From: a virus
IMG/VR virus record: IMGVR_UViG_3300044731_001604
Coordinates: 93,573-157,572 of that record
Reading direction: 5' to 3' (one strand)
Length of the DNA: 64,000 nt
The notes beneath the pieces are model-generated. The model was not told where the DNA came from and searched no databases. It saw only the letters and a program-made list of their open reading frames with translations. A program made the translations under genes and the position numbers. Positions within the stretch are counted from its first letter, which is position 1; each line of letters starts with the position of its first letter. Shown here in pieces: positions 4,808 to 64,000 of the stretch.

Positions 4808-6571
4808 TTAACCTGCCTTTTGAGCCAAATTGCGTCTAAATAAATTAGACCAATGGCCCAGAATTTCTCGCTTCTCTTTTGGCAGACTGTCTATTACGTC
4901 TGCTATTTTAGATTGGTGTTCCAACTTTTTAGATGGAGTGTCTCCAACCCAATGAGTGTCTGCGAAATGGTTTAACATCATGTTCCTTACATTTAGCTCA
5001 TTTTGCTTCATAGTTTCACTATTAAAGTGAGGGTTATGAATAATGCTATTAAAAGTTTGAGCCGCCTGATCAGGATTCATCTTCTCTATTATACCATTTA
5101 CGGTGCCTGTAATCAAGTCTTTCTGTTTTGGCGTTAGTTTTTTCTTATTATGCACTATGTCAGAAACAGCGTTTAAGGCCATAGTAGGGTCTTCTGGCAA
5201 TGACTTCAATTGTGCCGAACTTATTGATTGCACTGGTTTTCTAATAACTCTAGTATGTGGAAAACCTTGTCCAAGCTCATCTAAAGAGTACATCTTACTG
5301 TCATCTATATCGTTTAGACCTTTGACCCAGTTATTCATATTGTGCCAACGGTGATTGAAGTTGTCTCTGATATGTTCTCTAGTTGGCTGATCTTTAATTG
5401 CGCCTAATTGCTCTTCTAGTTTGTCTTTAATTTTGTGACCATTATTATGCCACCAGTCAGCCAGATTTTCGTGAGAATGCCACCCTCTTGCTGAATCTTT
5501 ATACAAGTTTCTGGTTCCATACGAATGTTTTAAATACGCTTCTGGGGAATCTGGAGTTGCAAAATCTAAATTTGTTGCCCCCACAGTTTTAATATATTGA
5601 AAATTTCTTTCATGATCAATACCAAGTAATTTATTAAAACCCTCTTCTTTGTTTTTAGATACTAATAAATTACCAGCGTGTCTATCTAAGTTATTCATTA
5701 GATAGTCCATTACGCCTATTTTGTGTAATTCTTCTGGATTAACATGGGTCTTATTGTTTTTTAAATCTATTGATGTTACTTCATGGTGATTTGGTGCAAA
5801 TTTGTGTATGGTAAATGGATGTCCATCTTTTTCATGCATTGACACGTCTTCTGCTAAATGTCCAATTCCGCCGGCGTTATACAATGCTTTTGTGGCCATA
5901 GTTGACCATCCAGAAATTGGAGCTTTCATAAAAGATCTTGTGGCAGTCTCTAGTTTTTTATGATACGGCTTAGACATAAACGTTGATTCAGATTGTGGCG
6001 TTGAAACAAAGCTACCGCCTTCATCTGTATAGCCTCTATATAAATGAACGTTTTTAGCAGCTATACCTTGTTGACTCAATGTCTGTTCATTTTTATGTTC
6101 AGCTGGATCTAAGTGAATTGATTTATATTCCTGTGGGGCTGGAAATTGTTGTAGATGCATAGAATGGTCTACCGTATCTGGCGCCTTGGTATCAATCTTA
6201 GATGTCATTTTTTTCCAAGCTTTTGGCTCAACTGATTTATTCAAATCTGAAGGGATTAAATTTTGTAATTTGAATGCTAGTTCGCCGGCTACTTTCTTAA
6301 CAGCCTCTTCAATCATTATTTTGTGTAAATTTTCTTTTTGTGCATTTAAAATATTTTTCTTAAATTCTGGATTATTAACATAATTAAATACAAAAGATAA
6401 TGGATCGTTCGTTTGTTTTTGTAATATTTTAGGGATACTAGTTTCTGAGACAAATTCTTTTAATGAATTTTCCCCAAACTCAGATTTAATCAATGAAAAG
6501 ACGTCTTCCAATGATGCACTGGAGACTTGTTTACGGTCATTAATATACTGTTTAAGATTAAGTCTTTTCAT
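4808..6571 (-). CDS. PI3/4-kinase/HipA-like fold protein (putative phage kinase)
   Basis: A 587-aa protein. The central domain has the catalytic signature of the PI3/4-kinase/HipA-like superfamily: MDYLMNNLDRHAGNLLV (residues about 287-304, the D-R-H-x-G-N catalytic loop), followed by LLGIDHERNF (about 315-324) supplying the metal-binding Asp. An ATP-grasp region upstream (FTIHKFAPN, about 253) could supply the Lys. The N-terminal 120 residues are helical and the C-terminus is all-helical. A second protein at 27063-28733 shares the same signature, so two kinases are encoded. Protein-kinase versus small-molecule activity cannot be told. Membership of the structural operon suggests that it is packaged, which is inference. 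Confidence 0.65.
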   Translation of the reverse strand: MKRLNLKQYINDRKQVSSASLEDVFSLIKSEFGENSLKEFVSETSIPKILQKQTNDPLSFVFNYVNNPEFKKNILNAQKENLHKIMIEEAVKKVAGELAFKLQNLIPSDLNKSVEPKAWKKMTSKIDTKAPDTVDHSMHLQQFPAPQEYKSIHLDPAEHKNEQTLSQQGIAAKNVHLYRGYTDEGGSFVSTPQSESTFMSKPYHKKLETATRSFMKAPISGWSTMATKALYNAGGIGHLAEDVSMHEKDGHPFTIHKFAPNHHEVTSIDLKNNKTHVNPEELHKIGVMDYLMNNLDRHAGNLLVSKNKEEGFNKLLGIDHERNFQYIKTVGATNLDFATPDSPEAYLKHSYGTRNLYKDSARGWHSHENLADWWHNNGHKIKDKLEEQLGAIKDQPTREHIRDNFNHRWHNMNNWVKGLNDIDDSKMYSLDELGQGFPHTRVIRKPVQSISSAQLKSLPEDPTMALNAVSDIVHNKKKLTPKQKDLITGTVNGIIEKMNPDQAAQTFNSIIHNPHFNSETMKQNELNVRNMMLNHFADTHWVGDTPSKKLEHQSKIADVIDSLPKEKREILGHWSNLFRRNLAQKAG

Positions 6572-16073: not shown

Positions 16074-16149
<76 letters not shown>

Positions 16150-16203: not shown

Positions 16204-17595
16204 TTAGAACAAGTTATCAATGATAACGTTCTTACGTGGTTGATATCCAGCTAAAGTCAAGAAACGGAAGTGAGCTTCAGTTTCAGAAAGTTCAGCTTGA
16301 GCAAGTTTCATACGGCTGTATGGGCTAAGCTCATGGAATCCCCATGTATCTTTTTGGATCATGTAACCAGTTACGAAACCTGGAGCTTTGTTTCCAAGGT
16401 CAGTAAATACTTGTGATGCAGAACCATCTGATTTCATTCTTCCGATGAATTTAGCAGTAGCTGCAGAGCTTCCTCTGTAAACGTTGTAATGAGTAGCACC
16501 AGCAACGCCAGCGATAGTCAAGTCAACTCTTTCACCAAGAGTAACAGTTACAGCAGCAGAAGCAGTAGCAACGCCTTCGCCACGTTCATTTTCAGCAGTA
16601 ACTAAATAGATATAGCTTCCTGCAGGGATGATAGCACCAGATCCTGTGTGAGCGCCAGAAACAGTAGCTGGAGCAGCAGGAGATCCGATCATTGGACGTA
16701 ATGGGCTAGTTTTTCCAGACAAGAAACGGCTATCTTCGATAGCAACAGTTCCGTTAGAAACCCATTGTCTACGGAGGTCGGCACCAGAAGCATCTTGTGC
16801 AGAACCAGCAAGCATAATTCTTTGGATGCTGTTAGCACCTGTTCCAAGAGCGATAGCTTTATTGTATCCAGAAAGGATAACAGGGTCAACATAAAGAGTT
16901 TCAGCTTTACCCATGTTCATGCGTGAACGAAGAGCAGCATCTTCAATAATAGGTTGATCTAAAGCACCATTTTTAGAAAGAACTACTGATTGGTTTGATC
17001 CGTAAGAAGCAAACATTAAATCTTGTGTAGAAACAAGAATATCAGACATACGGATGTGAGAATCAACACCCATCATGTTTGGAAGTTCAGGGATAGCATT
17101 TGGATTACCGTCGAAAACACCATTGTTAGAAAAGTGAGCTTTTCCACCGAAAGCGTCGAATTCGATATCAGCAGCAAGTTTGATAGCTGCGTTTTCTGCT
17201 TCTCTATCAGCAGCTTTTTTACCGTCAATAGTTTCCATCATGTTTGCAGCGATAGTTACACGCTCAATACAAGAATAGAAGCACATTGGAACAGTCGCTC
17301 TGATATAATCGCCAACATTAAGATCGCCTACTGCGCCTTCACGTTGAGCAGATCCGCCGAAGCGTCCATAAGAAAGCTGTCTGTTGAATTGAACCAACAA
17401 AGACTTAGCTTTTTTAACTGGGAAGAGCTTTTGTAATTTAATGTGACTATCATCAAATGTCACATTGTGCATTACAGGCTCAAGGTTTTCGATTTGGAGG
17501 GCAGAACCTTGAACAAGTTGCGAAGGAGCAACGTTGTAGTTTCCAGCCTCAAGAGTTTTGACCAGACCCTCTAGAGTCTTAACTAGGTCATTCAT
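16204..17595 (-). CDS. Major capsid protein with an inserted Ig/FN3-like domain
   Basis: 463 aa. Context (overlapping the scaffold gene, followed by a strong terminator) and sequence support a HK97-fold capsid protein of the T4/large-phage kind. The N-terminus has two KTLE repeats and the segment VKTLEAGNYNVAPSQL (12-27), which recurs in the protease-kinase protein. SRMNMGKAETLYVDP and SRMKLAQAELSETEAHFRFL are typical core elements. Residues about 305-405 (SYIYLVTAENERGEG, THYNVYRGSSA) look like an inserted Ig/fibronectin-III-type domain on the capsid surface. N-terminal processing is likely. GGGGG precedes the ATG, which overlaps the scaffold stop. Confidence 0.9.
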   Translation of the reverse strand: MNDLVKTLEGLVKTLEAGNYNVAPSQLVQGSALQIENLEPVMHNVTFDDSHIKLQKLFPVKKAKSLLVQFNRQLSYGRFGGSAQREGAVGDLNVGDYIRATVPMCFYSCIERVTIAANMMETIDGKKAADREAENAAIKLAADIEFDAFGGKAHFSNNGVFDGNPNAIPELPNMMGVDSHIRMSDILVSTQDLMFASYGSNQSVVLSKNGALDQPIIEDAALRSRMNMGKAETLYVDPVILSGYNKAIALGTGANSIQRIMLAGSAQDASGADLRRQWVSNGTVAIEDSRFLSGKTSPLRPMIGSPAAPATVSGAHTGSGAIIPAGSYIYLVTAENERGEGVATASAAVTVTLGERVDLTIAGVAGATHYNVYRGSSAATAKFIGRMKSDGSASQVFTDLGNKAPGFVTGYMIQKDTWGFHELSPYSRMKLAQAELSETEAHFRFLTLAGYQPRKNVIIDNLF

Positions 17596-25400: not shown

Positions 25401-25790
25401 TTTAACAGGTGGTCTTGATCCGTATGTTTCATTAATATATTTATTGGCTCTATCTTCAAGAACTTTTGTGTCAACATTTGGGTGTACGCTTGCCCCTTTT
25501 GACCTGTAAGCTGTATCGTTCATAGCAATATGGTTAACTACATCTGACGGTGTATTTGGATTATTAAGCATGCCATCAACAATTGAGTTGATCTCATGTT
25601 CTCCTACTTTTGGAGCAATATGGTTATATAATTTAGAGATAGACTCTTTTGGCGCATTCGCATGTTCTGCAATATCAGACATAAAAGCATGATCGTATAT
25701 GGTTTTATCCTCATGCGGAGTATTAATATAATTTTCAACATGAGAATTTAGAACATCTGATGGCGTATCTGTAGTTAATTCTTTGCTCAT
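19440..25790 (-). CDS. Giant (2116-aa) polyvalent-type protein with LRV-like repeats
   Basis: The longest gene in the window. The first 420 residues contain repeats such as HKNADPTLLGKIV, HSNLPNEVLSSVV and YKNLPPDVLKEIV, resembling the leucine-rich-repeat-variant (LRV) solenoid. A long helical, Lys/Asp/Ser-rich middle follows. The C-terminus (from about 1930) has DGWIIEEFQSDF and SKAGMNTVIENAKAQGVKTL, matching the 'EEiQSD' domain of phage and mobile-element polyvalent proteins. Such proteins are thought to be packaged and injected to act early in the host. No tail tape-measure features (long hydrophobic segments, lysozyme domain) are visible. GGGAG precedes the ATG; it overlaps an HNH gene by 4 bp. 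Confidence 0.7.
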   Translation of the reverse strand: MSKELTTDTPSDVLNSHVENYINTPHEDKTIYDHAFMSDIAEHANAPKESISKLYNHIAPKVGEHEINSIVDGMLNNPNTPSDVVNHIAMNDTAYRSKGASVHPNVDTKVLEDRANKYINETYGSRPPVKNLTPEFYENLLNNRKNHTEDEPNAKTDNEDEIVRLGYATTKHHTPDSIERGVKIFEKGPIYGFNAPTNPSSTIDSDDLVSDFIGNNDLSKDQLNRLHNVYESSSKDYPNTISSIVSHKNADPTLLGKIVKTYNSEESDHNKRSLLRHALGHSNLPNEVLSSVVEKPELDWHEKEALNLNENLSPDQIDKLVSNGHKEFLGHKNTNPDSIKKAWDLSSKDTDAARKMLGYKNLPPDVLKEIVNHKSKNIAIDALKHKNVNKDVVDTALKRKALDVYEAAKQHPLAGHDIYTNEFKQGKRNLHDMWKDSKAMEAWDKMSPEDKHLSLRTMHEKLKGTDLEEISKKSKQSLSDVVQNKLDLIKSPELSQDERDSNTDDLLQMFSESHPKNMSIYSGNDPRSGYYSSQEHKLDLKQSVKDLISNGNKKAEDFALQHPGLTKDLLDSKSRTSASFLDKLYDADKANKENNTQIYDQYGMPDKYSSDAWKLIHNDYSSMGTVKKIVKDYPGVLDTHDWGSKNNENQTWLSDKFEDMSDSEKEKNINDLLEISNGGAAPLIIATKNTPEKVKNELWDKLTPPEKHDLVTGGKYYFNPHDLNNHEENKKILSGHYNDLLPEDMKPRHILGNLEKSVISGMSPSNKSHVSILKDTIKNSEDSKSNSIISSLDRDFKKHKNILNIVPEDKVESIGTTAAIEHLLENEHSGADKLQGVVSNLKDFIKSHADKIENPQEKQDYITKTWKDILYSRASTRVANKAGKVFDDLVDSSGSEQGNELNRILLKDGLLSEEKKAELESKKSFTEKLDSIEHSKKMDYILNSVKGKSLSQPDFEAAVNQFQPDMYLYNHKFNNDHEEVSNDMLNFFDHVADDDKAFYITKLFDTDLDSNTKKILPNLINPLFEKINNLQNWSNEGLNALKDRFFKKVYESLGPVKQVKDLAKKMVDSTISNKNGDLLYDMIDKKILPSTYNKHLINMLQTSPESFGSGTLLSGATSIGHDDSNQKLAETFVNTLDKEAQKSIDQHKDYDKQKNLFTRLSQAHTEDQSKLQSITNFLKKHTLSEDPITSEYANKSLAKMLYSKIPKEEKTSIFKNLPNTPEIANNIEYGNLDTNNPDILENITGHKLRKFLSDSENFGKLTKQNIDVVTNRLFLDNEINESDRITAFGDLSTNPVVSPESLAKLGRSIPHNVYSAQIGVIFSLSKSGIKEKLNSLSTALHQLVESKIDELDKLMVPQDEGSPYFGSEYLSESHLSEIKKHLTPLAKFVGGTFFDESSTDVKSKLQTYSKVYESLDKHLGTILKNSKPEDVKKNAEIASEVLRDVTYSSLDISNEDLNHISNIISMSKQGGYDISLSYPVDIRDYKKLINRAKDAQLSDWQIHFEKHPEFNFCLDGVQELNSNVLGAYSFEKAYEADPQSAVHSAVKMIGRMDDNTLDKYGKGVLSKVVNVFTDPDVTPPDLSAPFKALGDKVSYSEFQDLVQDLDHAQKYNTQAIALQYGVGGQDLADSYVKERGVDEVYASSLFIDKKHSNEIVNNWEKDLKSTEIVDKLLRNYRTDVSSLDKISNILIENHKSGYNNLNKQESSSLAMVLLKHPNLSKESVERLYEETSNDKQVVFLPSRQYHPAFANPTWGGYLMRKFAPALPSEFKKTISEEKLVKSVSVHDKDVDVLQNTMNKVPADGIMWADFKKMNPELENNKVIKNIFMSKNNKPVVPEDFVNAMQSAEIQDKAKEYHMTYSIFDLKLQQHANKPSLVFQLNNSEKSEKEMSQDPKLWALYQMVLKETNGIRESSIGLHPTTPQMVAWSRVDTSSNKDGWIIEEFQSDFAQKFRKNIRTILANSPNGLEIDGHKLSPKEIKDYIKKIDAQLGEWSKAGMNTVIENAKAQGVKTLYMHGAGIRSHMSGGSMVNGQLREYNKDFINPRITDIYDGTAQKYGFTKVDYTDYPHKSVDTLNETRKKGLPTHCWALSLTDEPVQAKEKTAKVKKPRKPKLKE

Positions 25791-26452
25791 ACTCTACTCC
25801 CCTTTTTAAGATTATCAGCGGCCCACAGCGGTTGTAAATTAGTATAATGACACAATTTAATCATATCTTCTGGTGTTTTTGCCGAGCTTAATGGAACAAT
25901 GTGATCTACATGCCAACCATTACTTGACCAATTTTCCCAAGTCATACCTGGTTGAAATTTTGACTCTAAATAATTTTTTAAAAAATCACTAGTACATCCA
26001 ATATCTTTTATTGCTGATCCAATTTTTTTATATCCAGTTGCCTTTAAAAAATTATTAAGTCTTGCCCTTAGAGTTTTTGCTAATCTATACATAATATCTT
26101 TTTCTTTTCTAATTCTATGTATCTCTCTGCGTCTTTCAAGAACTTTTGGATGATTCTGCTTTAATTTTCTAAGTATTGGATTTTCTCTATCTCTCTTTTT
26201 TTTATTTTTTTCTCTAGACAGTTTAGGATTTTCCCAATACCTATCTCTGTATCTTTTTCTTTCTGACTCTAAATTTTTAAGTCTCCAAATTCTTGAATAT
26301 TCTCTAGCTTTTTCTCTGTTATTTGAATTTTTCAAATTTTGTCTTAAATTAATACACTTTTTACACTGAGAAACGCGGCCACTTTTTTTATGTTTGTCCT
26401 TAGAAAACTCACTTTCATTTTTTTCAATTTTACACTTGGTACAAGTCTTCAT
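25787..26452 (-). CDS. HNH endonuclease (free-standing homing type), copy 1
   Basis: 221 aa. An N-terminal zinc knuckle pair (CTKCKIEK, CKKCINL) is followed by a very basic helical linker (residues about 50-120) and the C-terminal HNH core: SNGWHVDHIVPLSSA with the distal YTNLQPLWAADNLKKG. These enzymes cut DNA and spread as free-standing mobile genes. The gene is inserted between two structural genes with 4-bp overlaps on both sides, so it causes no operon disruption. It is a paralogue of the HNH gene at 57984-58682. Confidence 0.88.
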   Translation of the reverse strand: MKTCTKCKIEKNESEFSKDKHKKSGRVSQCKKCINLRQNLKNSNNREKAREYSRIWRLKNLESERKRYRDRYWENPKLSREKNKKKRDRENPILRKLKQNHPKVLERRREIHRIRKEKDIMYRLAKTLRARLNNFLKATGYKKIGSAIKDIGCTSDFLKNYLESKFQPGMTWENWSSNGWHVDHIVPLSSAKTPEDMIKLCHYTNLQPLWAADNLKKGSRV

Positions 26453-27066
26453 TGGTCCAACCTAGATGGACTGGACCCATACTTCATTTTATATAAAATT
26501 CGTTTTACGTAGTTAGGAGATTCAGCGCCGCGATAATCCCCTGACTCAATTTCATAGTCATATTCTGGTGTGCTTAATTTCCCAGCTTCAATCGCTTGTT
26601 TTTGTTCTTTTCTAATGTTATCTAAAGCAGCTTTGGATATAAAGTTTTTTTCTTGTTTTCTTTCTGTAGGTTTAATAGACGGCATAATTGGGTAAGGTTG
26701 CGTTCCATCAGTTTTTCTAGTTACAGATATTTCTCCACGCTTAATTGCTGCAAATAACGCATCTTTTTCTTCTGGATCTAACATTTTACCATTTAAGATA
26801 CAAGTGTGCCCGTCAGAAGATATCTCAGCTACGTCACCGTTGCTTAAAATATATCTAAACATTGTTATGGAAGATTTGGTAGGTTCTTCCAAAGAAAGGT
26901 GGGACGATGCAGATACTTTTCTAGAAAGCTCTTTAAAAGAATTATTAGCCATTTTTGGCACAAAGCCATTAGAATTATCAACTATAAATTCAATCTGGTC
27001 TCCCTCAACTCTAATTTCAGCTAATGGTACTTTAGATTGCGTGGATTTTACTACATAGATTTTCAT
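26449..27066 (-). CDS. Hypothetical protein (205 aa)
   Basis: Starts MKIYVVKSTQSKVPLAEIR; the N-terminal half is beta-rich with ISSDGHTCILNGKML, the C-terminal half Lys/Glu-rich and probably disordered, ending in SPSRLDQ. It overlaps the protease-kinase gene by 4 bp and the HNH gene by 4 bp. No family is recognised; an assembly-associated role is suggested by position. Confidence 0.5.
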   Translation of the reverse strand: MKIYVVKSTQSKVPLAEIRVEGDQIEFIVDNSNGFVPKMANNSFKELSRKVSASSHLSLEEPTKSSITMFRYILSNGDVAEISSDGHTCILNGKMLDPEEKDALFAAIKRGEISVTRKTDGTQPYPIMPSIKPTERKQEKNFISKAALDNIRKEQKQAIEAGKLSTPEYDYEIESGDYRGAESPNYVKRILYKMKYGSSPSRLDQ

Positions 27067-28733
27067 TTGTCATCTCCTGGCAATAAAAGACTTTTTTGAT
27101 TAATTGTGTCACTTACAGCTTGGGCTCTGTCCCATGCGTTTTGCATAGTGATCGGTCTTTTAGAGTCTGCCTGATATGATTTTAACACACCTAGAGACTT
27201 TTGTATAGTTTTTTTATCAAAACCATGATGTTTCATGCGTAAAGCCAATACTTTAGGGTCAACGCTTTGAATCCATTTAGATGCTTCTGGGTGTATTGCT
27301 GAACTATCATTTTCTAAATAATCTGGCTTCATATACACATGGCTAAAAGCATAATCATTATCAATATTTAAAAGATGCCCGTCTGGATGAATTAAAACAT
27401 TACCAAGGTGTCTGTCGCTATTTTGAAGAACGTGGTCTAATATCGCTAATTTATGCAGACTTCCATCTTCCGTAGCTTTTTTATGCGCATTGTCCCAAGC
27501 TTCTTGGGACTCTAGTGGAGTTTTAGACCCCTTGATATACTCCACTGCTTGAGTTGAAAGCCCACCATGTACTTCTGGGTGCTTAATGGCTGCAGTTGTA
27601 GGAACATGTTTTTCCATGCCAAATACATTTCTTGCAATATCAGAATAGTGTGAGGCATTGTGATTTTGAGATTCCTGATTTTCGCCCATTGATAAACTGC
27701 TTGGGCCTTTTAAAAATACATCTTGCCCATTGTCGTTTCTTAAAATATGTAATTGTTTATCTGGACGGTATGAATCATGTCCAGGTGAGAATTTTTGCTT
27801 ATTATCAAAATACAAACCTTCAACCAAGTTTTTTTGATCATGATTTGCATTAATATGAGAATGAGTTTGATTAATTCTAGTTAACTTAGGCTCGCCTTTT
27901 TTTAGAGCAAGGTCTTCAGCAACATCAGCAAAGTGTTCTATATAAGTATCAGATATTTCAGGAAGAGCCGCCTTAAGAACTTCTTTAAGTGGTCTTTTTC
28001 TGTCCCAATCTCTAATTGCCGCTTTGATTTTATTCTTATTGGTTTTATTAACTATTTGTTCTCTAACTAAAGCTGCGCCGCCTGTAAGTTGTCCTGGTGC
28101 GACATTACCCATTCCGGCTTCTAGAGTTTTATTAAGCTCGTCAATAGCCTTTTTCATATCAGTAAAGTCTATTGCATCATCAGATAGAACGATTGAGTCG
28201 ATTGTTACTGTTGAAATTGATGAGCTTTCAAATTTTTTAACGATCTCTTCTGATTCTTTGTCAGTCATAACATCAATCCAGCATTGCTTATTACATGGAG
28301 TTAATGTGATCGCTACCTTTTTCATCATAGCTCTTTTAAGGATATTGCCATCTCGCTCAAGAGTCACGCCTTCGATTGAGGCTCCAACTTGGATTGGTTC
28401 TTTTTTATTATGAAAGTAACGAATCATTGCTGCAATTGCCAAAGCTCCATGGTGTTCTTCTTCATCAAAAAGCTCAAGTGCCCCATAGATAAACGGAACT
28501 TTTACTTGATCCCAGAATTTACGTTGACGATCAGTTTCACAATCGCCCTTTTTTAAAATTTTTTTTGCATATTTAAATACGCCAATTGCTGCAACTTCAG
28601 GAGAGTCGTTTTTGTGTTCAAAATTGGCAAACACTTGCCCTTTTTCAACAAGAGATATGTCTACGTTTTCAATTAATAGCGATTCGCCACTAGAATCAAT
28701 AGCTTGTGTCGCAATAGGCATGTCTATTATCAT
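27063..28733 (-). CDS. Prohead-protease-like domain fused to a PI3/4-kinase/HipA-like kinase
   Basis: 556 aa. Residues 1-165 look like a phage head maturation protease: FANFEHKND (candidate His39), KVPFIYGALELFDEEE, VGASIEGVTL (candidate Ser119) and KRAMMKKVAITLTPCN, in the order seen in prohead proteases. Residues 200-222 (LNKTLEAGMGNVAPGQL...) nearly repeat the N-terminal segment of the major capsid protein. From about 330 the protein is kinase-like: DVFLKGPS, then LQNSDRHLGNVLI (catalytic loop, about 435-447) and LLNIDNDYAF (about 453-462). A fused maturation protease and kinase, joined by a capsid-type tag, is unusual. Ribosome site GGAG; the promoter may be TATGGTATATG about 20 bp upstream. 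Confidence 0.75.
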   Translation of the reverse strand: MIIDMPIATQAIDSSGESLLIENVDISLVEKGQVFANFEHKNDSPEVAAIGVFKYAKKILKKGDCETDRQRKFWDQVKVPFIYGALELFDEEEHHGALAIAAMIRYFHNKKEPIQVGASIEGVTLERDGNILKRAMMKKVAITLTPCNKQCWIDVMTDKESEEIVKKFESSSISTVTIDSIVLSDDAIDFTDMKKAIDELNKTLEAGMGNVAPGQLTGGAALVREQIVNKTNKNKIKAAIRDWDRKRPLKEVLKAALPEISDTYIEHFADVAEDLALKKGEPKLTRINQTHSHINANHDQKNLVEGLYFDNKQKFSPGHDSYRPDKQLHILRNDNGQDVFLKGPSSLSMGENQESQNHNASHYSDIARNVFGMEKHVPTTAAIKHPEVHGGLSTQAVEYIKGSKTPLESQEAWDNAHKKATEDGSLHKLAILDHVLQNSDRHLGNVLIHPDGHLLNIDNDYAFSHVYMKPDYLENDSSAIHPEASKWIQSVDPKVLALRMKHHGFDKKTIQKSLGVLKSYQADSKRPITMQNAWDRAQAVSDTINQKSLLLPGDDK

Positions 28734-41854: not shown

Positions 41855-43636
41855 ATGTCTTTATTTCAAGCATCAAAACCAAAATCGGCAGGAAAAGTTA
41901 CGGTTCCATCCTCAAATCAATTATCTGAGGTAGTGTGTAAAACTCTTAATCATATGGCACAAATGGCAGGAGCAACTCTTGGTCCCGGCGGTAAACAAGT
42001 TTTGATTGAACGCGGTGAAATTGGCATGAAACCAATCTTAACAAAAGATGGTGTGTCTGTTATTAAATCCCTAGGGTATGATGGCGCGACTCAGCAATTA
42101 ATCCTTGAGGCTGCTAGAGATGCTGCAATCAGAACTGCTACAGAGGCAGGAGATGGTACGACTACTGCTACTGTACTTTCTGCTGCAATTACAAATGCTA
42201 CTGCCCATGTTGTTGCTAATAACCCAAAAGTGTCCCCACAAAAAATAGTACGCGAATTACAAAAAATCGTCCCTGTGCTGATCAAGATGATTAGCGATCT
42301 TAAGATTGACGTTACTGGAGAGAATTACCAAGAAGTTCTGTTAAAAGTTGCCACTTTGTCGGCTAATGGTGATACTGAGTTATCTTCAAAAGTACTTGAA
42401 GGTTTAGATTTAGTTGGAGATGAAGGCGACCTCACAATAGTTGAAGGTACTGGAGAGAGCAGATACTCTATCAATAGAATTAACGGTTACACAGTAGATA
42501 GAGGTCTTGAGGAATCTTGCAGAAATCTAGCTCAGGGTTTTATTAATGACAAATCTGGAACAATGGTAGTACTGGATAATCCGATCTTTATCCTCTATGA
42601 TGGTGTTATTAATGATTTTGGTCAAATTTTTGATGGACTTAGTAAATTAAATGCTACTTTGGAAGCTTCTGGTCGTCCAGATAGAAATGTAGTAGTAGTT
42701 GCTCATGGATTCGGCGAAATGGTATTAGGAGACCTTCACCATAACTGGAATCACCCGAAAGCTCCTCTTAAAGTTTACCCAATGCTAACTCCTGAAAAAG
42801 CAATTGCTAATTGGAGAACACAATTTCTTTATGATTTACAGGCATACACAGGTGCAACTGTGTTCAATCCAGTTGATAGACCTGTAATAGATATTATACC
42901 AGAATCAGTTATTGAATCTAATAGAGCAACTCGCGTAGAAATATCTAGATTCAAATCAATGGTTTTTGCAAAAGAAGATGTTGATGCTGTAAGCATTCGC
43001 GTTGATGAGCTTAAATTTCAAAAAAATGCTCCAGAAAGCGAATATGAGCTTAATGACTTAAATGTTAGAATCGGTAAGTTAACATCTGGAATTGTTAGAC
43101 TTGAAATATTTGGCCCTAGCTCTGGCGAAACTAGAGAGAAACGTGATAGAGCTGAAGATGCTTGGATGGCATTAAAAGGCGCTACTAAATATGGAGCAGT
43201 TCCTGGTGGAGGGTATGTACTTGTAAGACTGGCTGCTGCATTACAATTACAAGTAGATAAAATTCCACCGTCTGCTAAAAAATATGCTTATCAAATTCTT
43301 GCAGAAGCTTTATTAGAGCCAGTTAAATTATTATATAAAAATTATGGTTTTAATGATGAAGAAACTACTGAGCAAATATTTAAAATGTTAAATAATGACG
43401 ATCAAGCATACGACATTTTAGAAGAAATGTGGGTTCCAAAAGAACAATTATTAGATAGCGTTCCTGCTGTTAGCGAAGCGATCAGAAATAGTATTTCAAT
43501 TGCTTCATTGCTCGGTACGTTAGGTGGCATAGTTGCATTTAAACGCGATTATGATTCTGATAAAGAAGAAGAAAGACTTATTCGCAATTTTGAAGCCTCT
43601 ATTGGCGAACGTGGTTCTTTAGCTCAAGGAGAATAA
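41855..43636 (+). CDS. groEL: Phage GroEL-like chaperonin
   Basis: 593 aa, longer than bacterial GroEL (about 545). Conserved ATP-site segments are present: GATLGPGGKQVLIE (about 39-52), TKDGVSVIKSL (63-73), EAGDGTTTATV (97-107, with the Asp87 equivalent), RDRAEDAWMALKGAT (Asp398 equivalent) and AVPGGGYVLVRLA. The apical domain is divergent and the C-terminus lacks the GGM tail, ending GERGSLAQGE. Phage chaperonins are known to fold capsid or other large proteins. It has AGGAGG 5 nt before the ATG and starts the rightward operon. A GroES-like partner is at 37177-37464. Confidence 0.93.
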   Translation: MSLFQASKPKSAGKVTVPSSNQLSEVVCKTLNHMAQMAGATLGPGGKQVLIERGEIGMKPILTKDGVSVIKSLGYDGATQQLILEAARDAAIRTATEAGDGTTTATVLSAAITNATAHVVANNPKVSPQKIVRELQKIVPVLIKMISDLKIDVTGENYQEVLLKVATLSANGDTELSSKVLEGLDLVGDEGDLTIVEGTGESRYSINRINGYTVDRGLEESCRNLAQGFINDKSGTMVVLDNPIFILYDGVINDFGQIFDGLSKLNATLEASGRPDRNVVVVAHGFGEMVLGDLHHNWNHPKAPLKVYPMLTPEKAIANWRTQFLYDLQAYTGATVFNPVDRPVIDIIPESVIESNRATRVEISRFKSMVFAKEDVDAVSIRVDELKFQKNAPESEYELNDLNVRIGKLTSGIVRLEIFGPSSGETREKRDRAEDAWMALKGATKYGAVPGGGYVLVRLAAALQLQVDKIPPSAKKYAYQILAEALLEPVKLLYKNYGFNDEETTEQIFKMLNNDDQAYDILEEMWVPKEQLLDSVPAVSEAIRNSISIASLLGTLGGIVAFKRDYDSDKEEERLIRNFEASIGERGSLAQGE

Positions 43637-43637
43637 A

Positions 43638-43913
43638 ATGCCTTGGTTTACTTACAAATGCAAAGAACATGGAGAGTTCAAGGCATCACTATCTAAAAGA
43701 GAGCAGACTCAAAAATGTCCAGAATGTGATAACACTTGTTATTCTGTGATAAAGTCTGCTTCTATATCTATAGTTGAAAGATTAGATAATGGGGCAATGG
43801 CAAGAACAGTTGAAAGATTACACAACATTGAAGATATTATGAACGAAAGAGCTGATAAACATAGTGCAGAGAATAGTAGCCCAATAGAGGAGTTGGAAAA
43901 TGAGCAAAATTGA
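43638..43913 (+). CDS. FmdB-like zinc-ribbon protein (91 aa)
   Basis: N-terminal zinc ribbon: FTYKCKEHGEF followed by KCPECDNTC, as in FmdB/regulatory zinc-ribbon proteins of about 90 residues. The C-terminal half is helical and acidic. It starts 1 bp after the GroEL stop (GGAGAATAAA-ATG) and overlaps the PLP-enzyme gene by 14 bp, so it is part of a tight operon. Possible roles are DNA/RNA binding or partner binding; none is proven. Confidence 0.65.
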   Translation: MPWFTYKCKEHGEFKASLSKREQTQKCPECDNTCYSVIKSASISIVERLDNGAMARTVERLHNIEDIMNERADKHSAENSSPIEELENEQN

Positions 43914-44925
43914 TGTTGGTTTTGGCATACCGCTTTATATGCAACCATATTGGGATGAATCCGGAGAATATTTTCCTCACGCACTAGATAGCGTATTTAT
44001 CAATGAAGAGCTTAGCTATACTCATGGAGACATTGACGTATCTTTAGAGAATATAATTAGAATAACACACGAAATGGTCGGTAATGCTGTCACAGAAGGT
44101 TCTACTATAGTGGTAGGAAATGGCGCATCTCAAGTAATTTCTTCCGTAGGGTACGCTTCTAAAGCTTTGGGATATGATGATTTCAGCTTAAACGCACCGT
44201 TCTGGGGTAGATTAGAGTTTCTATTGACAGTTGGCCAAAAGGCGTATGATTTTACAAATGCTAAACCAAGAAAAACTCCTAAAAAACCAATATTTGATTT
44301 TGTAACTAGACCAAATAATCCGGATTCAAGTATGAGAGGGGCGGATGAATCCTTCTCGGTTGTTGACATGTGCTATAATTGGCCTCAGTACGTCCCTCAA
44401 GTAGAAAAAGGCGATTATGATGTTATGATTTTTAGCCTAGCGAAGGCTACAGGACATGCTGGAACAAGAATTGGCTGGGCAGTTGTAAAAGATCCAGAAG
44501 TTGCAGCAATAATGAAAGATTATATGGAGCTATCAACATGTGGAGTGTCGGTAGATTCTCAAAGAAAAGCTGATGGAGTCTTCACAAGAATCCTGTCTTT
44601 ATCAAGATTCTTTAAATCTCCGTTTGATTACGCAAAAGAAGAGCTATCATTAAGATGGGAAGTATTTAAAAATGGCGTAAAAGACAATACTGACTTTAAA
44701 CTACTAAATCAACATGGTATGTTTGCATTTTGTGAATTGTCATCTAATGATGAGCCTGTTGGTTTTATGGACAACAAATATGACTTAATAGTTACCCCAG
44801 GAAGAAATCTAGGATTGACAAGCGATTCAAATTGCTTTAGAATAAATCTTGGATGTTCTGAAGAGAACTTTACCAAAATGATGGGGTCTTTACGTGCAAA
44901 TAAACCTAGTATCACTGGAAATTGA
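43900..44925 (+). CDS. Alliinase/TAA1-like PLP-dependent enzyme
   Basis: 341 aa, fold-type I aminotransferase/lyase. The cofactor residues all appear: GNGASQ (73-78, phosphate loop), TRPNNPD (136-142), VVDMCYNWPQY with Asp156 and Tyr159, SLAKATGHAGTRIGWA with Lys182 as the Schiff-base lysine, and CFRINLG with Arg314 for the substrate carboxylate. 'K-x-TGHAGTRIGWA' and 'D..Y.WPQY' are hallmark segments of the alliinase/tryptophan aminotransferase (TAA1) family, which is rare in phages as far as I know. It is slightly short relative to plant TAA1. The substrate is unknown; amino-acid metabolism or base modification are candidates. GGAG site; overlaps neighbours on both sides. Confidence 0.82.
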   Translation: MSKIDVGFGIPLYMQPYWDESGEYFPHALDSVFINEELSYTHGDIDVSLENIIRITHEMVGNAVTEGSTIVVGNGASQVISSVGYASKALGYDDFSLNAPFWGRLEFLLTVGQKAYDFTNAKPRKTPKKPIFDFVTRPNNPDSSMRGADESFSVVDMCYNWPQYVPQVEKGDYDVMIFSLAKATGHAGTRIGWAVVKDPEVAAIMKDYMELSTCGVSVDSQRKADGVFTRILSLSRFFKSPFDYAKEELSLRWEVFKNGVKDNTDFKLLNQHGMFAFCELSSNDEPVGFMDNKYDLIVTPGRNLGLTSDSNCFRINLGCSEENFTKMMGSLRANKPSITGN

Positions 44926-46603
44926 AGGATTTAGAAGTTTTAGGCAATATACAAAGATTGATTTTCCTAAAAACGATTCCTTAGTACTTATTTCAGGTAA
45001 ATGGAAGGATACTGATGTTTCTTCCGGATCTGGAAAGTCTTCTATATTAGAAGCCATTGCATTCTGTCTTGATATTTCAACAGCAAGTGCTACCTCATTA
45101 AAAAATTGGGATTCTAAAAAGATGCTAGTCAAACTCACCTTGTCAAAAGGTGATGATATTATACAAATAACTAGAGATCCAAAGCTTTCTATATCTGTCA
45201 ATGGTGTTCCTTATGAAGGACTTGTAAAAGGCTCTAAGGAAAGATTGCAAGAACTATTAGGTGTTAATCCAGATATGCTTAAAACAATGACGTATAGAAA
45301 ACAACGAGTTGCAGGAAAAATAATAAGATCAACAGATTCACAAATAAAAGAGTTTTTAACCCAAACCCTTGGTTTAGATGAAATAGAAAATTTTATAGAA
45401 GAAAATTCAAAGCTGATTAATACTACCTCTAGATCTTTAGATATCATAAGAGCAAATTATGAGTCTGCAACAAAAAATTTATCAAGCAGCAATATATCAG
45501 ATGAAGAAATTCAATCATTGAAAAACGGCGTTATTGAAGCCGAAAGTACTTTTGAAAAATATAAAGATGACACTGCTAACAAAAATTTAACTACGGAAAT
45601 CAATAATTTAACAATTGAATATAAGAAAAGTATTGAAATAAAAAACAATGTTGAAAAAGCAAAATATTCTAATGATAATATTAAAAAAACAATTATTAAT
45701 TTAATAAATGAAATAGAACACCTTTCAAAATCATCTTGCCCAACATGCCTTAGAGATTGGCAAGAATCCAAGCAATTGTTAGATATTAAAACAAAAGAAA
45801 AAGATGCTTTAATTTTAAAATTTCAAGATAATTTATCATATATCAAAGATTCAGAATCTGTAATTTCTAATTATTCCAAATTGGAATATAAAATAAATGA
45901 GTTAAATAAACAACTTGCGATGATATCAGCTCCAAAAAACATGGCGTACCAATCATTACTCAATGCTAAGTCAGCTTTATCTATGGGAATGTCAAAAAGA
46001 AACTCATATATAGAACTAACAAATAGAGTTTCAGAATTATTTAACGAAGGCAGAATCAAGCAGCAAGAGTTAGAAGTGTTAGAATCAACTAACAAGCTTC
46101 TTGGCAGAACTGGATTTTTAGGCAATATTTTTGATGAAATTTTAGCCGACATTCAAATAAGAACAAATGATATGCTTTCAAATTTTCCAAATGCAAGTCA
46201 ATTTACGGTACAAATAAGCTCTACCAAAGAAGTTAAATCAAAGGGCACCACAAAAAAAGAAATATCTATTACCATAAATAACAATGGTAACGAAATCGGA
46301 ATAGATGACTTGTCAGGTGGTCAACAATCTGCTATAGAACTCTGCTCTGATTTAGCAGCCGCTGAGGTTATAAGAGCAAGATCTGGGTGCGGTTTAGGTT
46401 GGATATGCCTAGACGAAGTTATGGACGGCTTAGGCGCTGTTGAAAAAGAGGCTGCTGTAAATATGATAAGACAGCGAGTTAAGGGCCTAGTATTAATGAT
46501 TGAGCATTCAACTGAGATTAAAGAATCGTTTAATGAAGTAATAGAAATAGAGTTTTCCGGCAAAGAAAGCCGTTTAACTATAACAAATAATGTGGTATAT
46601 TAG
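44894..46603 (+). CDS. sbcC: SbcC/Rad50-like ATPase (T4 gp46-like)
   Basis: 569 aa, GTG start within the end of the PLP gene (GGGG ahead). Walker A is SSGSGKSSILEAIAF (about 49), a coiled-coil region spans about 170-400 with a central zinc hook SCPTCLRDW, and the C-terminal lobe has DDLSGGQQSAIELC (signature), LGWICLDEVMDGLG (Walker B) and MIEHS. It is the partner of SbcD at 36174-37184. Short coiled coils and size match phage gp46 rather than full bacterial SbcC (about 1050 aa). Confidence 0.9.
   Translation: MQINLVSLEIEGFRSFRQYTKIDFPKNDSLVLISGKWKDTDVSSGSGKSSILEAIAFCLDISTASATSLKNWDSKKMLVKLTLSKGDDIIQITRDPKLSISVNGVPYEGLVKGSKERLQELLGVNPDMLKTMTYRKQRVAGKIIRSTDSQIKEFLTQTLGLDEIENFIEENSKLINTTSRSLDIIRANYESATKNLSSSNISDEEIQSLKNGVIEAESTFEKYKDDTANKNLTTEINNLTIEYKKSIEIKNNVEKAKYSNDNIKKTIINLINEIEHLSKSSCPTCLRDWQESKQLLDIKTKEKDALILKFQDNLSYIKDSESVISNYSKLEYKINELNKQLAMISAPKNMAYQSLLNAKSALSMGMSKRNSYIELTNRVSELFNEGRIKQQELEVLESTNKLLGRTGFLGNIFDEILADIQIRTNDMLSNFPNASQFTVQISSTKEVKSKGTTKKEISITINNNGNEIGIDDLSGGQQSAIELCSDLAAAEVIRARSGCGLGWICLDEVMDGLGAVEKEAAVNMIRQRVKGLVLMIEHSTEIKESFNEVIEIEFSGKESRLTITNNVVY
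46573..46601 (+). promoter_or_regulatory. Extended -10 promoter (TGTGGTATATT), possible leaderless start
   Basis: -10 TATATT (46596-46601) preceded by TGTGG, weak -35 TTTAAC (46573-46578) at 17 nt. The next start codon is only 6 bp downstream (46607). Confidence 0.5.
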
Positions 46604-57983: not shown

Positions 57984-58682
57984 ATGAAAAATTGTAAAAA
58001 ATGTAATAATATTTTTGATAAAAGTTTTTTTAATAAAAGCAATCAAACAAAAGATGGACTTACTTTTTATTGTAAGTCATGCATTTCTATAAAAAAAGCT
58101 GATTATTATATTAGAAATAGAGAAAAAATTAAACAAAAATCTTCAGAAATAAGCAAAACTGATTACGCAAAAGAAAAAAGAAAAGAAAGAGAATCATCCA
58201 AAGAATACAAAGATAGAATGAAAGAATACAGATCTACAGAAGCGTATAAAAATAAAATAAAAGAAAGACGCCATTTGATAAGACAATATCAGGCTAAATG
58301 TAGATCAAAACTAGAGCAAAAAGAAAAGCGAAGAGCTAGACAGAGGAAGCGTATAACTAGCGACGTTGATTTTAAACTGGCAAGAAATTTAAGAAAGAGA
58401 CTGAATATGGCAATTAAAAAGTGTCAAAAATCCGGCTCAACAGTCAAAGATTTAGGATGTTCTATACCTGAATTAAAATTATATTTAGAATCAAAATTCC
58501 AACCAGGTATGTCTTGGGATAATTATGGGCTTTATGGCTGGCATATAGACCATATTATACCGTTATCAAGTTTTAATCTCTCAATTAGAGAAGAGTTTCT
58601 TAAAGCTTGTAATTATACCAACTTACAACCAATGTGGGCAGTAGATAACCTCATTAAAGGGGCTAAAATATATGCGTTATAA
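57984..58682 (+). CDS. HNH endonuclease (free-standing homing type), copy 2
   Basis: 232 aa. Cys pair CKKCNNIFD and CKSCISI at the N-terminus, a highly basic helical linker, and the HNH core LYGWHIDHIIPLSS with YTNLQPMWAVDNLIKG. LESKFQPGMSWDNYG also matches copy 1 at 25787-26452. It is inserted between uvsX and the primase gene and overlaps the latter by 11 bp. Its AGGAG site is enclosed in the hairpin at 57954-57983, suggesting translational repression, as described for some phage homing-endonuclease genes. Confidence 0.9.
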   Translation: MKNCKKCNNIFDKSFFNKSNQTKDGLTFYCKSCISIKKADYYIRNREKIKQKSSEISKTDYAKEKRKERESSKEYKDRMKEYRSTEAYKNKIKERRHLIRQYQAKCRSKLEQKEKRRARQRKRITSDVDFKLARNLRKRLNMAIKKCQKSGSTVKDLGCSIPELKLYLESKFQPGMSWDNYGLYGWHIDHIIPLSSFNLSIREEFLKACNYTNLQPMWAVDNLIKGAKIYAL

Positions 58683-62072: not shown

Positions 62073-63053
62073 ATGCGTAATTTTCTTAAATCTGTTCACG
62101 AGAAGCTCGGTAGTTTCATGTTTGGTGGCCTTAAAATAGGATTGGCTGTAGCTCTTGTGCTAGCAATTGCCCCAATCATTTCAATTGTTGGAGCTTATGT
62201 TTTTGGAACCAAGCAACACCCATCTCAAGTTACAGTTATGATCACAAACTTCAAACAAACTTCTGGCGGAACTGGCGTTGTAATTAAGCACACACCTACT
62301 AAATCTTTAATTTTAACAAACGCCCACGTGTGTGGACTAGTGTCTGAAAAAGGTGGTTTAGTTAAACAAACTGATAATCATACATATTTTGTTACAGGAA
62401 CTATGACATCAAAAAATCATGATTTGTGCGTAATCTCTGTGGCGGAAGATTTAGGTACATCTGTTAAAATTGCTAGTGAACCACCGGAATTGTACAGTGA
62501 GGCTACAATTACTGGTCACCCAGCTTTATTACCAAACATTATTTCAAAAGGTCATTTTGGCGGAAGACAAGTTATTTCAATTATTACCGGAGTTAAACCT
62601 TGTACTCAAGACGATTTTAATGGTCAAAATGCACTTCTTTGCATGTTCTTAGGTGGCCTTCCAATCGTTAAAATGTTCGATTCTCAAGTAGTGTCTGCTA
62701 CTATCCAAGGTGGATCTTCTGGTTCAGCTGTATTAAATTCTAATGGAGAATTGTCTGGATTAGTTTTTGCTGGAGCAGGAAATGGATTAAGCTACGCATC
62801 AATCGTTCCTTATGAGTATGTAATTGAATTTCTTTATGGAGAGTTTAGTGAGGCTGGTCTAGTTAAACCACCGGCTGAATTCGTTGCATCTGCCGATAAA
62901 CAAGAAGAGATTAACCTACCAAAACAAATCACTGGTGATATTATTAGAAAATGTAAAACATCTGACATTAAAAACCCTAAAATCAAATCAATCTGTAAGC
63001 TGCTTCTAAATGATTCAGCATACAGAGAAGAAGATTCAAATGGAAATAAATAA
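62073..63053 (+). CDS. Membrane-anchored trypsin-like serine protease
   Basis: 326 aa. A membrane segment is at about 20-45 (KIGLAVALVLAIAPIISIVGAY). A chymotrypsin/DegP-type domain follows with triad His85 (LILTNAHVC), Asp117 (KNHDLCVI) and Ser216 (IQGGSSGSAVLNSNGEL). No PDZ domain is recognised; the C-terminal part may be a Cys-containing anchor. Such enzymes are more usual in bacteria and eukaryotes. In a phage it could cleave envelope or virion proteins, or act in host take-over. AAAGGAG precedes the ATG. Confidence 0.75.
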   Translation: MRNFLKSVHEKLGSFMFGGLKIGLAVALVLAIAPIISIVGAYVFGTKQHPSQVTVMITNFKQTSGGTGVVIKHTPTKSLILTNAHVCGLVSEKGGLVKQTDNHTYFVTGTMTSKNHDLCVISVAEDLGTSVKIASEPPELYSEATITGHPALLPNIISKGHFGGRQVISIITGVKPCTQDDFNGQNALLCMFLGGLPIVKMFDSQVVSATIQGGSSGSAVLNSNGELSGLVFAGAGNGLSYASIVPYEYVIEFLYGEFSEAGLVKPPAEFVASADKQEEINLPKQITGDIIRKCKTSDIKNPKIKSICKLLLNDSAYREEDSNGNK

Positions 63054-63541: not shown

Positions 63542-64000
63542 ATGTTTGCTAATAAAATTACTTACTGTCTAAATTCAGCCGCTGTGGGAGATCTAGTTGC
63601 AGCGGCACCTTCCCTCAAGTGGGCAATCGAAAATTTCCACCACAAAACAGATTATCAAGTTGGAATGTACAAAGATTTTAAAGATCTGTTTCCTTTTGTT
63701 CCGGAAGAAAAAATAGTGGACATCCAAGGAAGTTATTCAAACGAATTCTCGGTTAGGCATCTTAATATGCTTGGAGTCGGTGGCAATGTTTGCAAATTAA
63801 CTCCGTCACGCATGAAATTAACTCAATATGGAAGTATTGGATTATTAGGTAGAGTATTACCAGACCATTTAACAAAATATGTCCCACTTCAAGAAGTTGA
63901 TGTTAGTCATTATGGTGTTGATTTTTCAAAAGCCGTTGTGATTATATCTACCTATAGAGATCCACAAAGAACAATAATTGCAAGTGAAATTAAAAAAATA
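63542..64000 (+). CDS. Partial glycosyltransferase (GT9 / heptosyltransferase-like)
   Basis: Runs off the right edge; 153 residues are visible. The start SAAVGDLVAAAPSLKWAIEN is the typical N-terminal signature of GT9 family ADP-heptose-LPS glycosyltransferases ('GD...a.P.l..l'). AAGGAA precedes the ATG. A phage GT9-like enzyme could modify host LPS or a virion glycan. The catalytic part is mostly outside the window, so the call is moderate. Confidence 0.6.
   Translation, partial: MFANKITYCLNSAAVGDLVAAAPSLKWAIENFHHKTDYQVGMYKDFKDLFPFVPEEKIVDIQGSYSNEFSVRHLNMLGVGGNVCKLTPSRMKLTQYGSIGLLGRVLPDHLTKYVPLQEVDVSHYGVDFSKAVVIISTYRDPQRTIIASEIKKI

Follow-up and report, generated by a model that had tools for sequence, protein, structure and literature searches.

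The window analysed here is the whole 64,000-nucleotide stretch, and forms the final 64 kb of a virus record that is 157,572 bases long. The two ends of this record (window positions 63807–64000 and the first 194 bases, L026:1–194) form a 194-base direct repeat with 192 identical positions, so that the genome (G000) is probably near-complete and either circular or circularly permuted. Genes coding for a terminase, a capsid protein, a ClpP-type protease and DNA polymerase III alpha were found in the genome, and portal, RecA-like and primase genes were recognized by eye and by synteny with Myxococcus phage Mx1, the nearest cultured phage found (capsid, GroEL and terminase 55%, 40% and 33% identical, respectively). 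The locus of interest contains the following features:

41855..43636, + strand: GroEL-like chaperonin gene (Pfam Cpn60, 1.6e-35; PHROG 5725, 1.3e-78)
43638..43913, + strand: gene for a small Zn-ribbon (FmdB-like) protein (Pfam Zn_ribbon_8, 5.8e-6, under the curated cut-off)
43887..43892, + strand: GAGGAG, a putative ribosome-binding site read from the sequence, 7 bases before the ATG
43900..44925, + strand: gene for an Alliinase_C/TAA1-like PLP enzyme of 341 aa (Pfam, PDB profile, AF2 and Foldseek)
44894..46603, + strand: SbcC-like ATPase gene with a GTG start (PHROG 77, 2.2e-44)

The ORF of the PLP enzyme starts with ATG; its first 14 bp also belong to the Zn-ribbon ORF and its last 32 bp to the SbcC-like ORF. 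These coordinates agree with the overlaps and the position behind GroEL given in the first-pass annotation, and the co-expression with the neighbouring genes proposed there is plausible, co-transcription being likely at this locus.

Several other features of the window were recorded. Two ORFs among the structural genes, at 27063–28733 and 4808–6571 (−), gave matches to PI3/PI4-kinase-like domains (5e-11 and 2e-9, respectively), and the ORF at 27063–28733 has homologues in further phages carrying the enzyme gene (L018, L019, L022). The only tRNA gene of the window, tRNA-Ala (TGC) at 16074–16149 (−), adjoins the major capsid gene (16204–17595), a trypsin-like serine peptidase (62073–63053, +; Pfam Trypsin_2, 5e-13) lies beside replication genes, and two similar Cys-rich ORFs with no Pfam match (25787–26452, −, and 57984–58682, +) have, by eye, the look of HNH-type homing endonucleases.

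The protein encoded at 43900–44925 matched the Pfam family Alliinase_C (PF04864, the TAA1/alliinase family) with an E-value of 9.8e-47 and 160 bits, well above the curated cut-off of 22 and better than the general aminotransferase model Aminotran_1_2, which reached only 46 bits. A single-sequence phmmer search of the PDB retrieved TAA1 (4e-35) and alliin lyase (4e-24) and no other match below 0.2. With a profile of 22 phage members (alignment A3), all of which match Alliinase_C, the PDB hits were TAA1 (2.2e-68), alliin lyase (7e-55) and, as the next aminotransferase, a protein at 5e-14, with ACC synthases among the remoter matches (1.9e-10). NCBIfam yielded weak generic aminotransferase matches only, and identity between the phage and plant enzymes is about 30–34%. 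An AF2 model of the window enzyme (mean pLDDT 88.6, pTM 0.89) confidently gave a TAA1-like fold: Foldseek ranked TAA1 first (E = 1e-26, TM 0.84) and alliinase second (1e-23, TM 0.82), followed by kynurenine aminotransferase (3e-15), so that the nearest solved fold is that of TAA1/alliinase, clearly before other aminotransferases. Among predicted viral structures (BFVD) the top match was a giant-virus aminotransferase with 14% identity, which indicates that a close viral relative is absent from that catalogue. Family models and predicted fold thus bear out the alliinase/TAA1 assignment of the first-pass annotation and confirm the ORF as a real, intact gene whose product is a predicted Alliinase_C member with a fold-type I PLP-enzyme architecture.

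In fold-type I enzymes a lysine binds PLP and a C-terminal arginine binds the alpha-carboxylate of the substrate; the aspartate and tyrosine contact the pyridine nitrogen and O3' of PLP, the aspartate activating the pyridine nitrogen, and in the aminotransferases the asparagine of NNPD also contacts O3'. The corresponding codons of the window gene, with their conservation in the phage family described below, are:

44317..44319, + strand: N140 (NNPD), the same residue in 33 of 33 phage members
44365..44376, + strand: D156 to Y159, with D156 and Y159 each in 33 of 33
44443..44445, + strand: K182, predicted PLP Schiff-base lysine, in 33 of 33, aligned with K217 of TAA1
44467..44469, + strand: R190, predicted to bind the PLP phosphate, in 33 of 33
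44527..44529, + strand: E210, a phage-specific invariant residue, Glu in 33 of 33
44839..44841, + strand: R314, predicted to bind the substrate alpha-carboxylate, in 32 of 32 complete members

The complete fold-type I PLP active-site set (Lys, Asn, Asp, Tyr and two Arg) is therefore found in the phage members. Every residue listed earlier for the window enzyme (GNGASQ, NNPD, D156/Y159 with WPQY, K182 in KATGHAGTRIGW, and R314) is present, and there is no sign of a broken active site, the catalytic residues being intact within a confidently predicted TAA1-like fold. When the phage sequences are aligned with TAA1 and alliinase, the two plant enzymes whose structures are solved, the counterpart of E210 is Ile245 in TAA1, a hydrophobic position, and Thr in alliinase. 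E210 lies in the segment that follows the lysine loop; in several class I enzymes this segment takes part in substrate binding. Glu210 would probably shape a side-chain pocket unlike the indole pocket of TAA1, and its invariance suggests a substrate other than tryptophan, an acidic residue at this place pointing away from indole and towards a side chain that is polar or cationic.

Relatives of the enzyme were collected from metagenomic viral contigs of up to 169 kb, many of them incomplete. Among 2.9 million viral contigs, a degenerate TGHxGxRxGWA pattern had 11 hits, 11/11 of them within family members, alignment-based scans of viral contigs gave 30 and then 38 loci, and more members came from a GroEL scan and genome searches; dereplication at 95% left 33 distinct members. 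Many relatives thus carry the gene and several others lack it. Between close member pairs dN/dS was 0.04–0.12, which by this sequence measure shows the enzyme gene to be under strong purifying selection where present. The most divergent member (L093:1306–2379, +, contig G032, 357 aa) adjoins a ClpP-like ORF and lacks the WP and TGH signatures, with the K, R, YIE (Glu210) and GMF kept; in INPHARED its matches, at 24–27% identity, are limited to unannotated phage records and those of Listeria phages. The TGHxGxRxGWA signature scan found no member in the 84,980 bacterial and archaeal species genomes of GTDB, an absence defined by this one signature and one narrower scan, the signature having been run there without a separate positive control and having given 11 true members among viruses. 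No match to the enzyme was found among PLSDB plasmids, no annotated relative among INPHARED phages (queries P0001 and two other members), and no relevant report in a literature search for a phage alliinase or TAA1. In a phylogenetic tree, plant and phage enzymes grouped together, apart from ordinary aminotransferases (100/97); the tree did not settle the order within the plant and phage group and had very long outgroup branches, and for these reasons we make no claim on the direction of transfer between plants and phages. All carriers come from metagenomes and are large tailed phages. Their enzymes appear to form a real branch, carried by phages, of an enzyme family associated with plants; within the scope of our searches this branch had not been described before.

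The neighbourhood of the gene varies widely among carriers. In seven phages (the window, G003, G006, G014, G015, L072 and L073) it lies behind GroEL and directly upstream of SbcC, in most of them with a Zn-ribbon or other small ORF between GroEL and the enzyme gene. About eight phages (L065/G023, L066, L070, L071, L074, L075, L077 and Mx1) have the GroEL–Zn ribbon–SbcC core without it, including L065/G023, whose GroEL is 70% identical and whose 154.8 kb contig holds no copy of the enzyme gene. Some phages thus have the gene between Zn ribbon and SbcC, and close relatives, among them Mx1 and L065/G023, have nothing in that slot. In G016, GroEL and SbcC lie together at 76–80 kb and the PLP gene at the contig end, and in G010 and G013 the PLP gene is apart from SbcC. 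At least eight unrelated neighbourhoods were counted, most members lying outside the GroEL/SbcC setting: in seven phages the gene is beside a cluster of DUF3310, an M78-peptidase-like gene and a PD-(D/E)XK nuclease, in five it is upstream of a terminase-like ORF, and further neighbours are a HesB/IscA-like, deaminase-like, RNase H-like or tail gene. One carrier contig (G028) also has an FtsH-like ATPase/protease ORF, recognized by eye (L108:830–2629, −).

When the proteins of eight carrier and four non-carrier genomes were clustered, the enzyme was the sole family to separate all carriers from all non-carriers, in a set of 12 genomes of which several may be incomplete and with clusters at BLAST level. 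Paralogous AAA+ ATPases occur at one to two copies per genome in 6/8 carriers and 0/4 non-carriers (L156, L152, L168, L169, L145, L103, L113, L164), a group that is probably generic. Membership of the enzyme in a defence system was considered and rejected, as it had no PADLOC match. The occupied and empty slot, the relocation and the want of a constant partner mark the enzyme gene as accessory, stand-alone cargo: as read from gene order, large phages acquire it, lose it and carry it at changing places, and the enzyme looks autonomous. The first-pass description of a chaperonin operon consequently holds locally, for the window, and fails as a rule, since the core exists without the gene and the gene is mostly elsewhere.

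We propose, with a probability of roughly 55%, that the enzyme is a catalytically competent, stand-alone phage PLP enzyme that would transaminate a free host amino acid, accessory cargo shifting a host pool. K182 would hold PLP, D156, Y159, N140 and R190 would position it, and R314 would take the alpha-carboxylate of the free host amino acid; this would be converted into a 2-oxo acid by transamination, beta-elimination of the side chain being less likely, and the host amino-acid or 2-oxo-acid pool would probably be shifted in infection. Reactions of fold-type I enzymes include transamination, beta-elimination, decarboxylation, oxidation and cyclisation, among which the sequence does not decide; given the closest relationship to TAA1 and the conservation of R314, a free amino acid as the substrate and an aminotransferase reaction appear likeliest, with a beta-lyase reaction less likely. 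Of the roles suggested in the first-pass annotation, changing a host amino-acid pool is the best candidate.

A C–S beta-lyase like garlic alliinase, which would split cysteine S-conjugates or sulfoxides, for example to free sulfur or a reactive sulfenic product, is a rather unlikely reading: alliinase is the second closest solved structure by sequence and fold, but TAA1 is consistently nearer (2.2e-68 versus 7e-55), the EGF-like N-terminal domain is absent, and no sulfur-metabolism partner recurs, the HesB/IscA-like Fe–S gene being found in one context only. We regard as still less probable that the enzyme helps to hypermodify a DNA base or tRNA. PLP enzymes do serve thymidine hypermodification in other phages, and some neighbours act on nucleic acids (SbcC, the PD-(D/E)XK nuclease, a cytidine-deaminase-like ORF and ThyX); however, no neighbour is constant, ThyX-type genes were found in Mx1 and G030, both of them non-carriers, and in 0/8 of the carriers compared (including G000), and no modification cassette or partner enzyme co-occurs with the gene at BLAST sensitivity in the 12 genomes of varying completeness, results that speak against the role in DNA-base modification suggested earlier. 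A comparably low probability is given to a counter-defence enzyme destroying a metabolite of host immunity such as S-adenosylmethionine. Accessory, variably placed genes are often of this type, and ACC synthase, another fold-type I enzyme that can consume S-adenosylmethionine, is among the distant relatives (1.9e-10), but the phage enzyme is much nearer to TAA1/alliinase in both sequence and fold and matched nothing in PADLOC, a library of defence rather than anti-defence proteins. It is very doubtful that the enzyme works for the operon of the chaperonin or SbcC, be it as a client of GroEL or in regulating recombination: the genes are adjacent or overlapping in the seven phages named above, and no sense-strand terminator-like site was found between the genes, but the core lacks the enzyme in about eight phages and the gene is far from GroEL and SbcC in most members, slot occupancy and relocation largely ruling out such a partnership as a general rule. 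A contaminant, eukaryotic fragment or decayed relic, to which the plant origin of the closest named relatives might point, is already refuted by recurrence, the members being only about 30–34% identical to plant enzymes, intact, under purifying selection and located in syntenic phage genomes from many metagenomes.

The benefit to the phage can be guessed to lie in altered amino-acid or 2-oxo-acid pools, or in the removal of a metabolite used by host defence, and the enzyme points to an undescribed route by which phages may rework host amino-acid metabolism. The plant relatives are the makers of an auxin precursor and of garlic odour, and the diverse, intact phage set under purifying selection supplies a missing branch of the TAA1/alliinase family in the prokaryotic world, which is relevant to the debate on how auxin biosynthesis arose in plants. 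More tentatively, and on balance doubtfully, tailed phages rather than bacteria may be the main home of this family in the prokaryotic world, with a phage-only branch, a Glu210-dependent non-tryptophan substrate, use as a stand-alone tool of infection and a possible role as an ancient source of the eukaryotic genes.

The tryptophan aminotransferase clade has been described as nearly all plant (PMC9309667), with bacterial homologues of TAA1 reported at about 25% identity only and non-plant eukaryotic relatives in existence (PMC4754409). Ordinary bacterial class I aminotransferases (such as 2z61, 2o1b, HisC, GntC and VioD) share the scaffold and the PLP-binding residues with the phage enzyme, but their profile match (5e-14) is weaker by about forty orders of magnitude or more, and neither the YxWP nor the TGHxG signature is present in 2z61 and 2o1b when these are aligned. 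Other PLP enzymes of phages in BFVD (for instance NifS-like proteins and the aminotransferases of Gordonia phage Pupper and Mycobacterium phage Tonenili) have the same broad fold at about 10% Foldseek identity, far weaker than the match to TAA1. Garlic alliin lyase (PDB 1lk9, 2hor), the second best match, has the family and the active-site motifs in common with the phage enzyme and differs in its Thr in place of Glu210, at about 30% identity, and in its EGF-like N-terminal domain; the window protein has none, its Alliinase_C match beginning at residue 4 with no N-terminal extension, and judged by this domain the phage enzyme is not a strict alliinase (EC 4.4.1.4). The best match in sequence and fold is TAA1, the L-tryptophan aminotransferase of Arabidopsis (PDB 3bwn/3bwo), which likewise lacks the EGF-like domain and shares NNPD, D-x-x-Y-x-WP-x-Y and SK-x-TGHAG-x-R-x-GWA with the phage enzyme at about 33% identity, whereas Ile245 and PAF of TAA1 are replaced by the invariant Glu and by GMF in the phages.
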